Assembly (NCBI GenBank): GCA_001782675.1
Contig: MFPJ01000004.1
Coordinates: forward strand, 1-33,007
DNA length: 33,007 nt
From: Candidatus Levybacteria bacterium RIFCSPLOWO2_12_FULL_39_17
Lineage (GTDB): Bacteria > Patescibacteriota > Microgenomatia > Levybacterales > GWA1-39-11
Direction: 5' to 3'
Part shown: in pieces, positions 6,126 through 22,379 of the stretch
Numbering within the stretch: the first letter of the stretch is position 1
Layout: the number at the start of each line of letters is the position of its first letter
Notes under the pieces: model-generated
The model's database searches: none
Told to the model about the DNA's origin: nothing
Seen by the model: the letters and a program-made list of their open reading frames with translations, nothing else
Position numbers and translations under genes: made by a program

Positions 6126-7241
6126 GTGAGGGCTTTATTCTATATTCTTATTATTTTTTTTGTTGTTCACCTTTTTATTGTCCTTGGCATTAATCAAATT
6201 CCCATTTTCCAACTTGATTTTCCTTTTAAAAGCATCGTTGAGGTTTATGAACCTAAGATACTCTCTCCTCTTGCCGGTTTTGACGGAGCGCACTATATTA
6301 TGATTGCAAAATTCGGTTACCAGCAGTATCAGGAGGCTTTCTTTCCTCTTTATCCTGTCCTCGTAAATCTTTTGCCGATATTTAACCCTTTGGTTTCAGG
6401 TCTTTTGATCTCGTGGTTATCTTTGATCGCAGGCTCCTATTTTTTTTACAGAATTACGAATCTTATTCTTAAGAGAAAAAATGATTATTGGTCCCTCATT
6501 TTTTTGCTTTCGTTTCCTTCTGCTTTCTTCTTCATAACAGTTTATTCTGAAAGCCTTTTTCTGGCCACTGCTTCTTTAGCCCTATTTTTTATTTTTAAAA
6601 GAAATTTCAAACCGGCTGCGCTTTTTTGTATCCTTGCCTCTCTGACAAAATTACAGGGATTTTTTTTAATAATTCCTTTTCTGTTTTCGGTATTTGAGGC
6701 AAAAAAGGGAAATAAATTATTTAATATCTTAATTGCTCTATCGCCAATATTAGGTCTTGCTGCTTACTCAATATTTTTATTTTTCAGAACGGGAGACCCT
6801 CTTTATTTCTATCATTCACAAGAAGCTTTTGGCGCAAATAGAATAAGTACAGGATTCGTTTTTCTCCCGCAGGTATTTTTTCGATATCTTAAAATTCTAA
6901 TAACAGCAGATTTAAATTTTCAATATTGGATTGCTTTTTTGGAATTATCCGTTTTCCTTATAGTCTTTGCCGTATTGCTTTGGGTTTTATATTTAAACTT
7001 TAAAAAGAAAGATTTTTCTTTTGAATTTTCTCTTAATCTTTACTCTCTGGCTGCGCTGATGCTTCCAACGCTGACCGGCACATTAAGCTCTATTCCCCGA
7101 TACTCTCTCATAGCATATGGCTTCTTTATTGCTCTTTCAAAAATACGAAATGTCAGTTTAAAAATTCTAATAGGATTAATTTTTTCGATCCTTCACCTCG
7201 TTCTTTTTTTCTATTTTATAAAGGGGTATTTTGTAAGTTAA
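6126..7241 (+). CDS. PIG-V-like GT-C membrane mannosyltransferase
   Basis: A 371-residue integral membrane protein with about ten hydrophobic segments. The first lumenal/periplasmic loop has FDGAHYIMIAKFGY followed by FFPLYPVLV, the pattern of PIG-V/GPI-mannosyltransferase-2-like proteins, where the Asp is catalytic. TVYSESLFLATASLALFF and SIPRYSLIAYG are the other conserved blocks. Such enzymes take mannose from a lipid-phosphate donor on the outer membrane face. A candidate donor synthase, the DPM1-like protein at 30017-31147, is in the same window. The start is GTG, set by the -10 box 6 nt upstream. Its TAA abuts the TAG of the converging glycosidase gene with no base between. Confidence 0.75.
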   Translation: MRALFYILIIFFVVHLFIVLGINQIPIFQLDFPFKSIVEVYEPKILSPLAGFDGAHYIMIAKFGYQQYQEAFFPLYPVLVNLLPIFNPLVSGLLISWLSLIAGSYFFYRITNLILKRKNDYWSLIFLLSFPSAFFFITVYSESLFLATASLALFFIFKRNFKPAALFCILASLTKLQGFFLIIPFLFSVFEAKKGNKLFNILIALSPILGLAAYSIFLFFRTGDPLYFYHSQEAFGANRISTGFVFLPQVFFRYLKILITADLNFQYWIAFLELSVFLIVFAVLLWVLYLNFKKKDFSFEFSLNLYSLAALMLPTLTGTLSSIPRYSLIAYGFFIALSKIRNVSLKILIGLIFSILHLVLFFYFIKGYFVS

Positions 7242-14878: not shown

Positions 14879-14904
14879 TTGATTTTTGATATTTGATATT
14901 TATT

Positions 14905-15939
14905 ATGGCTCATTTAGCTGATGTAACACGAGAAGTTAGAATAGCTTTAAAACTTTTGACAGCATCTCTTATTATTGTTGTTTTTCTTTTTATCTTTTTT
15001 AAGGGTGGATTAATTATGAAGAATCTTTTTTTCCCAACTCCCCCTCTTCCGCCTGAGGAAAAATTCGGCAAGCTTCCCAGGGTTTCTTTTCCGGCTCAAA
15101 AAATTGAGAATATAAATTATAGGATCAATACTTTATCCGGAGATCTTCCGAATTTTCCGGATAGAATCAATGTCTACAAAGTAAAGAAAAAAAATCCCAG
15201 TATTATAGCGCTTCAAACGGTCCGGGAGAATCTTAAATCCCAAGGTTTTTCGGAAAATGAAGTAAAAATTAATGATTCTCTATATCAATGGACCAGCAAC
15301 AATCAAGTGGTTATTCAATACAATATATTTAATGACTATTTTAAAATTAATTCTAATTTTCTCGTTAATCCTTCTTCTCCCCCTGAAGGAGCAGGAGCAA
15401 AAAAAGACAGAACATTTAATGCGTCTATAGATTTTCTTCAGGGCCTTGGCCTTGAAACATCCGACTTTGCTGAAAACGAGTCTGACATAGCTTACCTTAA
15501 AATTACAAATGGAACATTAACTGTAGCGGAAAATCAAAACGATGCTCAATTCGTCCGCGTAGACCTTTTTCAAAAAAATATAGACAAGGATTATAAGATT
15601 TATTATCCCACGGCAAAAAATTCCACAACATATTTCATCTTTAAGAATGATTCTTCGCCATCAAAAATCGTAGCAGGAAAATATCAGCACCTTCTGCCCG
15701 ATGACTCTTCCACCTACCCCATAATAACGGCAGAGCTGGCTTTTGAGGAATTGAAAAAAGGGAATGTTCTTGTTTTTAACGATATTCAAGGCAAAGATAC
15801 TATTGATATAACAGATATAAGTCTTGGATATTATGCGGGAGAAGAAAACCAGCAGTATTTTCTTCCGATAATTGTTTTTAAGGGAAACGCCTTTAAAGCT
15901 TATGTACAGGCGATATCTGAAACCTCAATAGGAAATTAA
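14905..15939 (+). CDS. Membrane-anchored protein of unknown function
   Basis: A 344-residue protein I do not recognise. A short cytoplasmic N-terminus is followed by one hydrophobic segment (about residues 13-36) and a proline-rich stretch (PTPPLPPEEK); the rest is soluble with alternating strand-like segments. It therefore looks like a signal-anchored extracellular protein. LVNPSSPPEGAGAKKDRTF is a likely flexible loop. An earlier in-frame TTG at 14893 is less likely than the ATG at 14905, which places the basic TREVR just before the helix. Its last 15 bases overlap the end of the converging carboxypeptidase gene. The neighbour suggests an envelope role, nothing more specific. Confidence 0.7.
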   Translation: MAHLADVTREVRIALKLLTASLIIVVFLFIFFKGGLIMKNLFFPTPPLPPEEKFGKLPRVSFPAQKIENINYRINTLSGDLPNFPDRINVYKVKKKNPSIIALQTVRENLKSQGFSENEVKINDSLYQWTSNNQVVIQYNIFNDYFKINSNFLVNPSSPPEGAGAKKDRTFNASIDFLQGLGLETSDFAENESDIAYLKITNGTLTVAENQNDAQFVRVDLFQKNIDKDYKIYYPTAKNSTTYFIFKNDSSPSKIVAGKYQHLLPDDSSTYPIITAELAFEELKKGNVLVFNDIQGKDTIDITDISLGYYAGEENQQYFLPIIVFKGNAFKAYVQAISETSIGN

Positions 15940-16840: not shown

Positions 16841-18202
16841 TTATTTTTTAGAAAATCGTTCGTCAATCCTTTCCATATCTCTTGGAAAAAGACTGGCTTC
16901 CCGGACATTTTTAAGGCCTAATGTCTTCATGGTAATCCTCTCCATCCCAAATGAAAATCCTCCCTCGGGAGGCATCCCGTAGGCAAACGCCTGAAGATAC
17001 ATTTCAAAATCCTTAGGATTCAAACCCCTTTTCTTAAGACTGCTGACTAACTCCTTGTAATCGTGTATTCTTTGACTGCCGCTTAAAATCTCAATCCCCC
17101 TAAATAGCAAATCATAGCTCAGGCTGTATTCCGGATTTTTAGGATCGGGCATAGTATAGAAAGGTTTTGCTGTTGTGGGAAAGTGAGTAATAGTGACAAA
17201 GTCGCTTTTATGTTTTTTTCTAGCCCACTCGCAAATTTCAACTTCATCCTGAGGAGCAAGATCCTTTTCTCTCCTAAAGTCTCTTCCATATTCCTTATAA
17301 ATTATTTCCTGTGCCTCTCTTACGGTAAGTCTTGGTATCTTACCATACGCAATACTTTCCATTTTGAAATCTTTTAAGATGCCGCCGCAAGCTTCTTCCA
17401 CGTGTCTTAACATTGTCACCGCAACTTCCTCAAGTAAATCCAACAGATCATTAAAATCAACAAACCCAATCTCGCAATCCATTTGGGTTGTTTCGGATAG
17501 ATGTCGGGTTGTTACCGAAGGTTCGGCTCTGTATGCGTGAGCAATAGTCCAAACCCTTTCAAATACCGTAACCAACATTTGTTTGTACAACTGTGGGCTT
17601 TGCGCCAAAAATGCCTTGTGATCGTAGTATTTCATCTCAAAAAGCCCTGCCCCTCCTTCTGTAGCGCTGGCAACTATAGTAGGAACAACAATTTCCGTAC
17701 AGCCTATTTTTTTGCTTGCAATTCTGAATCCTTCAACTATTGCTTCTTGAACTTTAAAAATTTGTGCAATTTTTCTATGACGGAGCGTCAGTGCGCGGTA
17801 ATCAAGAAGTGTAGGCAATTCAAGATTTAACTCCTCTGCTCCCATATCAAAAGGAAGGGATTCTGCCTTTGACAAAATAGTGATTGAGTTAATTTCAATT
17901 TCTACATTTCCCGTTTCTAAATCTCTGTTAATGGTATTCTCCGGCCTATTTTTTACAACCCCTACTGCTTCAACAACAAACTCGGGCCTGATTTCTTGCG
18001 CTAATTTATAGCTGTTCTCTGATGCTTTTGGATTTATAACTAATTGTACAAGTCCCGAACGATCCCTAAGGTCAAAAAAGATGAGTTTTCCGTGATCTCT
18101 CCTTGTTTTAATCCAGCCGGCAACCTTCACTTGCTTCCCAATAAGATCATTACTGTCCAGCACCAAGCTTCTTTTCAGTTGTGGTGAACCTAGTTGAACC
18201 AT
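16841..18202 (-). CDS. aspS: Aspartyl-tRNA synthetase, archaeal-type (probably non-discriminating)
   Basis: A 453-residue class IIb synthetase. The OB-fold anticodon domain (first about 110 residues, with KVAGWIKTRRDHGKLIFFDLRD) is followed by a catalytic domain with FLAQSPQLYKQ, motif 2 (RAEPSVTTRHLSE) and motif 3 (FGMERITMKTLGL). It lacks the large GAD insertion of typical bacterial AspRS and follows the archaeal/eukaryal layout. Such enzymes often charge both tRNA-Asp and tRNA-Asn, the latter needing GatCAB to finish. The ATG at 18202 is set by a promoter just 7 nt upstream; an in-frame TTG at 18238 is inside the -35 box. Confidence 0.88.
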   Translation of the reverse strand: MVQLGSPQLKRSLVLDSNDLIGKQVKVAGWIKTRRDHGKLIFFDLRDRSGLVQLVINPKASENSYKLAQEIRPEFVVEAVGVVKNRPENTINRDLETGNVEIEINSITILSKAESLPFDMGAEELNLELPTLLDYRALTLRHRKIAQIFKVQEAIVEGFRIASKKIGCTEIVVPTIVASATEGGAGLFEMKYYDHKAFLAQSPQLYKQMLVTVFERVWTIAHAYRAEPSVTTRHLSETTQMDCEIGFVDFNDLLDLLEEVAVTMLRHVEEACGGILKDFKMESIAYGKIPRLTVREAQEIIYKEYGRDFRREKDLAPQDEVEICEWARKKHKSDFVTITHFPTTAKPFYTMPDPKNPEYSLSYDLLFRGIEILSGSQRIHDYKELVSSLKKRGLNPKDFEMYLQAFAYGMPPEGGFSFGMERITMKTLGLKNVREASLFPRDMERIDERFSKK

Positions 18203-18209
18203 AGAGTAT

Positions 18210-18238
18210 ATTTTACCTTTAATTGCTTCCCTTGACAA
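18210..18238 (-). promoter_or_regulatory. Promoter giving a leaderless aspS mRNA
   Basis: On the minus strand: TTGTCA (18233-18238), ideal 17-bp spacer, TAAAAT (18210-18215), then 7 nt to the ATG at 18202. Its -35 box overlaps that of the divergent promoter on the plus strand by five bases. Confidence 0.75.
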
Positions 18239-18260
18239 GCACTTCCCTTTTTGCTAAGAT
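18232..18260 (+). promoter_or_regulatory. Promoter of the structured leader and orphan gene
   Basis: A perfect TTGACA (18232-18237), ideal 17-bp spacer, TAAGAT (18255-18260). Expected start near 18267. The near-palindrome CTTGACAAG provides the -35 box for this promoter and for aspS in the other direction, so the two cannot easily be occupied at once. Confidence 0.7.
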
Positions 18261-18266
18261 TCAAAC

Positions 18267-18381
18267 ATAAGCATGAAAGTTTCTCGTCGTTTTATTAAGA
18301 ACAATATCCTCGTCTTTTAGACGCGGGGGGTTGTTTGGTGATAGAAACTTAAACTTCCCTGCAAAAAAGCGGGGATTTTTT
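18267..18381 (+). ncRNA. Structured leader RNA, possible riboswitch or attenuator, class unknown
   Basis: About 115 nt from the predicted start to the end of a terminator. AAGTTTCT (18277-18284) pairs perfectly with AGAAACTT (18343-18350), closing a 58-nt domain. Inside it, CGTC-TTTTA-GACG (18311-18323) is extended by CCT/GGG and ACAA/TTGT pairs to about 18301-18334. An intrinsic terminator follows at once. A 15-codon reading frame (ATG 18273 to TAG) lies in the first half and could be a leader peptide. I do not recognise a known riboswitch family, nor the GGAA/AGCAG motifs of SRP RNA. It could also be a free small RNA. Confidence 0.45.
18357..18381 (+). terminator. Intrinsic terminator placed directly before a start codon
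   Basis: Stem CCCTGC (18357-18362) / GCGGGG (18369-18374) with an A6 loop, then A and six T (18376-18381). The ATG of the next gene starts at the next base. GGGG of the 3' arm is also the only Shine-Dalgarno candidate for that gene, so the hairpin could control both transcription and translation. Confidence 0.65.
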
Positions 18382-18732
18382 ATGGAAACAGAACAAGAAA
18401 TAGATAGAAAAACAAGAAGAGAAAAAAGAATTCGAATGAGAGAGTTGAAGTCGGTATTGGGACCTGCAGAACGGTTCCAAATGTTTAGCTTCGAAGAGGC
18501 TTTATCTTCATATTTGCAAACTCTTGAGAGCAAAGGCGCTCCCGAAGAGGACATAAAAAAAATATATTTACAAAATGCAGTTAGATTTTCAAATAGTCCT
18601 TTCGAAGGAAGGATGGAACAAATAGGGTCGTTACAGAATATCGTACGAGACATAAAATTAAGCAATAATGGCACTAATGGCCATAGAGAAAGCGAGGTAT
18701 TTTTAAAACCCAATAACGAACACCCACTTTAA
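18382..18732 (+). CDS. Small charged protein of unknown function
   Basis: A 116-residue soluble protein I do not recognise. The first third is strongly charged and helical (EIDRKTRREKRIRMRELK), the middle FSFEEALSSYLQTLESKGAPEEDIKKIYLQNAVRF looks like two helices joined by a turn, and the tail is polar and probably disordered. No membrane segment and no cysteine. The frame is open upstream to a TTG at 18331, but that region forms the leader structure, so ATG 18382 is preferred. Its expression seems to depend on the leader and terminator just upstream. The stop codon overlaps the recJ stop on the other strand by two bases. Confidence 0.6.
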   Translation: METEQEIDRKTRREKRIRMRELKSVLGPAERFQMFSFEEALSSYLQTLESKGAPEEDIKKIYLQNAVRFSNSPFEGRMEQIGSLQNIVRDIKLSNNGTNGHRESEVFLKPNNEHPL

Positions 18733-21968: not shown

Positions 21969-22379
21969 ATGAGAAGGTATAAACGATTAGATAAAAGGGA
22001 TATATTAGAAGCGCTTAATGAGTTGAGAAATGCTTTTCTTGCTGCTAAGGATGGTAACGAGGTTGACAAAATAATGGATGGACTTTTAACTCATGACGAG
22101 AAGCTAAGAATAGGAAGAAGAATATTAATAGCAGGATGGTTAACCTCGGGTTTTGGAATAGAAGAAATAGTTAGGCAATTGAAAGTAGGCAAAAACACAG
22201 TCATGCATGTTTCAAGGAGATTAGAAAAGTATAAAGAATGCTTTGATTTAATTGCGAAGCGTCAAAAAATTGTAGAAAAGGAATATCAAAATAAAAAATA
22301 TAGATTGGTTGGAGGTTCGCAATTAGTTTTTAAACGAAAAGAATATACCGGTTTTAAAAGAAAAGACGTTAAGAAATAG
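21969..22379 (+). CDS. TrpR-family transcriptional regulator (YerC/YecD-like)
   Basis: A 136-residue DNA-binding protein. The TrpR fold covers about residues 12-90: LLTHDEKLRIGRRILIAGWL (39-58) matches the [20 protein letters not shown] helix pair of E. coli TrpR. The helix-turn-helix follows in FGIEEIVRQLKVGKNTVMHVSRRL (62-85). The last 40 residues are a Lys/Arg-rich tail not found in TrpR and may add DNA contacts. No tryptophan biosynthesis gene is in view, and ligand residues cannot be assigned. Operator-like elements lie immediately before and after the gene, which suggests it regulates itself. Confidence 0.85.
   Translation: MRRYKRLDKRDILEALNELRNAFLAAKDGNEVDKIMDGLLTHDEKLRIGRRILIAGWLTSGFGIEEIVRQLKVGKNTVMHVSRRLEKYKECFDLIAKRQKIVEKEYQNKKYRLVGGSQLVFKRKEYTGFKRKDVKK

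Follow-up and report, generated by a model that had tools for sequence, protein, structure and literature searches.

A putative ribosome-mediated transcription attenuator with a nearly leaderless leader ORF, recurring beside aspS in Levybacterales

Positions 18267-18381 of a 33,007-nt stretch of contig 4 of Candidatus Levybacteria bacterium RIFCSPLOWO2_12_FULL_39_17 (the whole stretch is called the window here; genome 907 kb, completeness 98.9%) are, with a probability that we put at roughly 0.7, a transcription attenuator under ribosome control whose 15-codon leader ORF is (nearly) leaderless. The evidence, all of it drawn from sequence, consists of the parts of the leader, their recurrence in relatives, covariation and calculated switching. 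When no ribosome is present, or when the ORF is promptly translated and the ribosome released, the closing helix P1 and the protector hairpin (regions 1:2) would form and region 3 would be left free, so that regions 3 and 4 pair and transcription terminates ahead of the orphan gene. Once it has reached the stop codon, a ribosome would cover region 2, which would also favour termination. A ribosome lingering within the ORF, short of its final few codons, would hold region 1 and free region 2, which would then pair with region 3, causing the terminator to fail and the orphan gene to be transcribed. Since the ORF holds no run of codons for a single amino acid, the switch would most likely answer the general state of translation rather than one amino acid; candidate signals are slow elongation, a shortage of any of several charged tRNAs, and ribosome-targeting stress. 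We infer the direction of regulation and the signal, as well as transcription and translation of the ORF.

The promoter upstream of the leader scores 10 of 12 matches with an extended -10 box, and transcription is predicted to start at about 18267 (Table 1). Five promoters were found in the region against 3.7 expected, a count that by itself is not above chance, and a TTGACA-type promoter recurs at the equivalent position in many relatives. The intrinsic terminator, TCCCTGC-AAAAAA-GCGGGGA followed by six T, occupies 18356-18381 and directly adjoins the orphan ATG at 18382, and the sole Shine-Dalgarno-like run in the leader, GGGGA at 18371-18375, lies inside the terminator stem. An earlier note on this DNA had described a promoter, an 8-bp closing helix, an inner hairpin and a terminator whose last T touches the ATG, with the only Shine-Dalgarno candidate in the terminator stem, and every one of these was found where it had been placed; the 15-codon ORF inside the structure had been overlooked. 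The 115-nt leader folds with -35.4 kcal/mol, compared to a shuffled mean of -23.0 (z = -3.75), and 1 of 200 shuffles was as stable.

Table 1. Positions of the leader elements and adjoining genes in the window.
Feature	Position	Strand	Description
Promoter	18232-18260	+	-35 TTGACA 18232-18237, spacer 17 nt, TG-extended -10 TAAGAT 18255-18260
Leader ORF	18273-18320	+	ATG 18273-18275, 15 codons MKVSRRFIKNNILVF, stop TAG 18318-18320
P1 closing helix	18277-18350	+	18277-18284 with 18343-18350; start of the leader ORF pairs with the stretch before the terminator
Protector hairpin (regions 1:2)	18299-18336	+	18299-18305 with 18330-18336 and 18307-18315 with 18319-18328; stop codon in loop
Region 2, GCGGGGGG	18323-18330	+	Imitates the terminator 3' arm; 5' strand of the antiterminator
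Region 3, TTCCCTGC	18355-18362	+	Terminator 5' arm; partner is region 2 (antiterminator) or region 4 (terminator)
Region 4	18369-18381	+	GCGGGGA 18369-18375 and T-tract 18376-18381; 3' half of the intrinsic terminator
aspS-type class II synthetase (D/K/N)	16841-18238	-	Divergent neighbour; locus marker across relatives
Controlled orphan gene P0001	18382-18732	+	116-aa protein, predicted helical bundle

The ATG of the leader ORF lies 12 nt past the -10 box and about 6 nt past the predicted transcription start, so that translation, if the ORF is translated at all, would be (nearly) leaderless. The inner hairpin holds the stop codon of this ORF in its apical loop. Region 2, shortly 3' of the stop, resembles the GCGGGGA of region 4 and can pair with region 3; since it thereby mimics the 3' arm of the terminator, a protector (1:2), an antiterminator (2:3) and the terminator (3:4) are all possible. 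As far as sequence goes, this is the arrangement of a leader-peptide attenuator, with a short ORF between promoter and terminator and its stop between regions 1 and 2. In all 20 full-design leaders scored, the antiterminator arm (region 2) starts at -3 to +4 nt, counted from where the stop codon ends, and the stop codon is at most 8 nt from the centre of the apical loop in 16 of 21 leaders, for which the chance is about 0.07-0.20 each. Compared with shuffles, the aspS-type ORFs are enriched in Lys and depleted in Asp, Pro and Tyr, a mild sign that they may be translated.

MAFFT alignment of whole leaders puts the inner hairpin in the wrong place, and a covariance model was therefore seeded with 8 trimmed leaders and then refined. 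In the model-fitted alignment of 20 leaders, which is biased towards its own model, 89.1% of cells pair and both partners change in 7 of 14 pairs; the whole-structure covariation score is 0.284 versus 0.215 for shuffled alignments (0 of 500 shuffles as high), and slid structures reach at most 0.158. The protector hairpin has a counterpart helix in the 20 leaders. Compensating changes in the closing helix, which had been proposed as a check in the earlier note, were found among relatives: in the six leaders carrying P1, with arms picked by eye and pairing thus favoured, 48 of 48 pairs form and 5 of 8 are changed on both sides, giving a covariation score of 0.767 versus 0.235 for shuffles (0 of 500) and at most 0.150 for slid helices. 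In 8 of 20 leaders, the closing duplex outperforms 98% or more of the spacer shuffles; that of the window, equalled by 83 of 1000 spacer shuffles, is not among these 8.

A metabolite riboswitch governing the orphan gene via termination would likewise present a promoter, a closed domain, an inner hairpin and a terminator at the start of the gene. However, the columns that hardly vary among the aligned leaders fall in the terminator and at the inner-hairpin GG, no conserved unpaired aptamer-like core was found across relatives, and no Rfam family reached its gathering score for the leader or the window, where permissive matches were noise. The T-box covariance model (RF00230) also had no match in the window. 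A riboswitch would moreover leave unexplained why the stop codon is locked to the antiterminator arm, and we regard it as extremely improbable. Where the earlier note had allowed either a riboswitch or an attenuator, the attenuator is thus favoured by the stop codon in the apical loop and the antiterminator arm at the stop, and the riboswitch is disfavoured by the missing core. Its remark that no family with this sequence is known holds at the level of sequence, which matches no known family, but the design of the putative attenuator is of a known kind.

Switching was calculated by folding the nascent RNA with the ribosome footprint removed. In the nascent window RNA, the probability that region 3 is bound by region 2 is 0.01 with no ribosome, rises to 0.95 when a ribosome stalls 3-5 codons ahead of the stop and is 0.65 for one at the stop itself, and the antiterminator is the minimum free energy fold of the nascent stretch (-14.7 kcal/mol). 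The final terminator probability is 0.98 with no ribosome, 0.51-0.73 with a stalled ribosome and again 0.98 with a ribosome at the stop. By calculation, then, the pairings are mutually exclusive and depend on the position of the ribosome. Because little energy separates antiterminator from terminator in the window, and the stalled state at equilibrium still forms the terminator at least half of the time, switching would have to be kinetic. Most other leaders show a similar order of switching. Eleven of 20 switch better than all 60 of their spacer shuffles; the window score beats 56 of 60, a modest result. For four leaders, L127, L149, L151 and L159, hardly any switching is calculated.

The recurrence of the leader was investigated by collecting the aspS loci of the order and reading 49 regions divergent from aspS. 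The full design is present in about 22 of these 49 loci, with almost no shared sequence, and a simpler form in 7 more; both counts were made by inspection, and the relatives are correlated rather than independent samples. As a guard against ORF starts that had first been picked by eye, a blind rule was applied, which takes the best promoter and then the first ATG or GTG 4-25 nt past the -10 box. Of the 21 loci carrying a terminator, 18 have an ORF of 13-20 codons under this rule. The exceptions are L131, where a hairpin lies inside a long ORF, L144, where a spurious ATG comes first, and L147, whose 38 codons may reflect a frameshift. At four loci lacking a terminator (L134, L138, L139 and L161), the same rule opens straight into a gene of 80-96 aa. 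A DNA search of the leader against relatives found no leader, because the sequence is too diverged, and an exact 14-mer scan of the genome contigs gave chance matches only. Within its own genome, the covariance model matches strongly at the window leader only, and the pheS attenuator ranks next. Beyond the order, leaders detected by the model adjoin genes judged by eye to be aspS (L211, L216, L219, L222, L223 and L226), and in L211, L222 and L223 the ORF extends past region 2; the placement therefore appears to predate the order, although its details vary. A comparable switch occupies the equivalent chromosomal place in many related bacteria, which are probably ultra-small. One genome (G079) carries a tandem pair of attenuators beside aspS (L164, 182-269 and 565-654).

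In the simple form (L157, L168, L170, L171, L173, L174 and L175), the ORF stop abuts the 5' arm of the terminator and no separate antiterminator was seen; a ribosome at the stop would there block termination, a logic different from that of the window type. Leader translation itself decides read-through in the growth-rate attenuator of E. coli ampC. By analogy, leader translation as such, and not stalling, might set read-through in the window, with expression of the orphan proportional or inverse to ribosome supply. The abutting stop codon of the simple form and the lack of control codons agree with such a gate, for which the DUF1127 uORF of S. meliloti is a published precedent (PMC12218461), yet a ribosome at the stop of a window-type leader should favour termination (final terminator probability 0.98), and the full protector/antiterminator pair, which a plain gate would not need, has been kept. 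We consider a gate of this kind rather unlikely and favour the reading in which a lingering ribosome permits read-through.

The leader covariance model also detects textbook attenuators in the genomes of the group. In the genome of the window itself, L203 (G000:C35:37267-37365, minus strand) consists of a Phe-rich ORF, MKALDFFFYFTFAS, which includes FFFYFTF, and a terminator, followed by a 115-aa orphan and then pheS; on its sequence it is a classical Phe attenuator. An F/Y-rich leader ORF, MKNNLIVFTYFYFTP, precedes DAHP synthase at L182, and an Ile-rich one with a GTG start precedes an amino-acid kinase that looks like aspartokinase at L184. These attenuators and that of an ileS-like gene (L214) share with the window a short 5' UTR and a stop adjoining region 2, which reads GGGAGG and mimics the 3' arm of the terminator. 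Unlike the window, the amino-acid-type leaders have runs of Phe/Tyr, Ile/Thr or Leu and in most cases lie upstream of cognate genes, from which a small orphan ORF often separates them. At L191, L198, L203 and L214, an attenuator is followed by a small orphan ORF and then by an aminoacyl-tRNA synthetase (pheS, a class IIb synthetase reading as thrS, or ileS-like).

The anatomy of the window leader being identical to that of the Phe-, Ile- and Leu-rich attenuators of the group, its ORF might itself sense one aminoacyl-tRNA, for example through the CGT CGT Arg pair at 18285-18290 or through its Ile/Asn codons; a leader of another order that is divergent from an aspS-like gene (L216, G083:C20:14346-14441) indeed has a Phe-rich ORF (FGFYFTF). 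However, no amino acid is common to the aspS-type ORFs, and none of 32 has at least four of one residue in its last 10 codons, as 7 of 10 amino-acid-type ORFs do. No known biosynthetic or synthetase gene is among the controlled genes, and in the window there is neither a run of codons for a single amino acid nor a cognate gene downstream, where the orphan is followed by recJ on the other strand. An amino-acid-specific attenuator is therefore unlikely. The aspS neighbour suggested that Asp might be sensed, a reading that was rejected because the window ORF lacks Asp codons and the ORFs together contain few Asp residues (3, or 0.29 of the rate in shuffles).

The classical trp, his and pheA/pheST attenuators, like the window, combine a short ORF whose stop lies between regions 1 and 2 with exclusive 1:2, 2:3 and 3:4 pairings and an intrinsic terminator before the structural gene. 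The window differs from them in having no run of control codons, in controlling a small orphan rather than a biosynthetic gene or synthetase, and in an ORF so close to the predicted transcription start that there is no room for a Shine-Dalgarno sequence. A leader ORF free of amino-acid bias is instead what it has in common with translation-sensing uORF attenuators (erm/mef, DUF1127). The ermC leader (PMC2965389) is a precedent for sensing slowed translation without amino-acid specificity, and the uORF of mef(E)/mel (PMC4335068) also senses slowed translation, acting in mef(E) by transcription attenuation. In both, the leader ORF lacks biased codons, as in the window, and the RNA refolds when the ribosome is delayed, as predicted for the window; the window, in contrast, has no resistance gene downstream and no known drug response, and in ermC it is translation rather than termination that is controlled. 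The DUF1127 uORF attenuator of S. meliloti, which uses C-rich codons and RBS masking (PMC12218461), is a further precedent without amino-acid specificity, although it has no protector/antiterminator pair such as that found here, and its genes and phylum are unrelated.

The product of the controlled gene, P0001, matches no family in Pfam, PHROGs or NCBIfam. Its structural model is a helical bundle with a mean pLDDT of 75, confident at about residues 31-90, and a fold search with this model returned no PDB match and nothing below E = 2.4. The only homologue found in the 82 genomes of the order is that of G002, at the equivalent position (28% identity, E = 1.8e-6). It too stands behind a leader of the window kind, so the leader is present where the gene is kept, a point on which the earlier note had made its proposal depend. 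The leader is also kept where the downstream gene differs, as in G001 of the same genus, which has no detectable P0001 homologue and a different ORF in its place, and in others. Common ancestry of all the downstream orphans was rejected, only the G002 gene being clearly homologous and the others forming separate small groups.

Because the element persists at this locus whereas the downstream gene varies from species to species, the terminated RNA of about 115 nt might be the product itself, as a small RNA or as the template of a leader peptide acting in trans, with read-through into the orphan incidental. This is very unlikely, given that the primary sequence is not conserved, that the orphan ATG abuts the terminator, and that P0001 and its G002 homologue can still be aligned. 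The persistence of the leader design in front of differing genes might tentatively, at somewhat less than even odds, be read more broadly: the leaderless-ORF attenuator without amino-acid specificity may be a long-kept sensor of the translation state in an ultra-small bacterial class, fixed beside aspS, with an effector gene that has been repeatedly exchanged or rewritten.

In Patescibacteria-like ultra-small bacteria, the mechanisms of differentiation are described as completely unknown, and regulation of translation is expected to be key (PMC11665869). Gene regulation in these organisms is almost unknown, and a search of openly licensed papers found no description of such attenuators in Patescibacteria/CPR; here a putative leader-ORF attenuator is kept at one locus across many genera, in genomes that also carry ordinary amino-acid attenuators. 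If the proposed mechanism is correct, such bacteria would read their own translation state through RNA, and small orphan proteins would gain a predicted condition of expression.

Of the 82 genomes of the order, 3 have T-box matches that exceed the Rfam cut-off (L229, L230), and 28 more have weaker ones. Elsewhere in the window, two ORFs at 6126-7241 (371 aa) and 14893-15939 (348 aa) had no Pfam match, and 21969-22379 encodes a protein with a weak match to the Trp-repressor family (29.5 bits, Pfam cut-off 27 bits).
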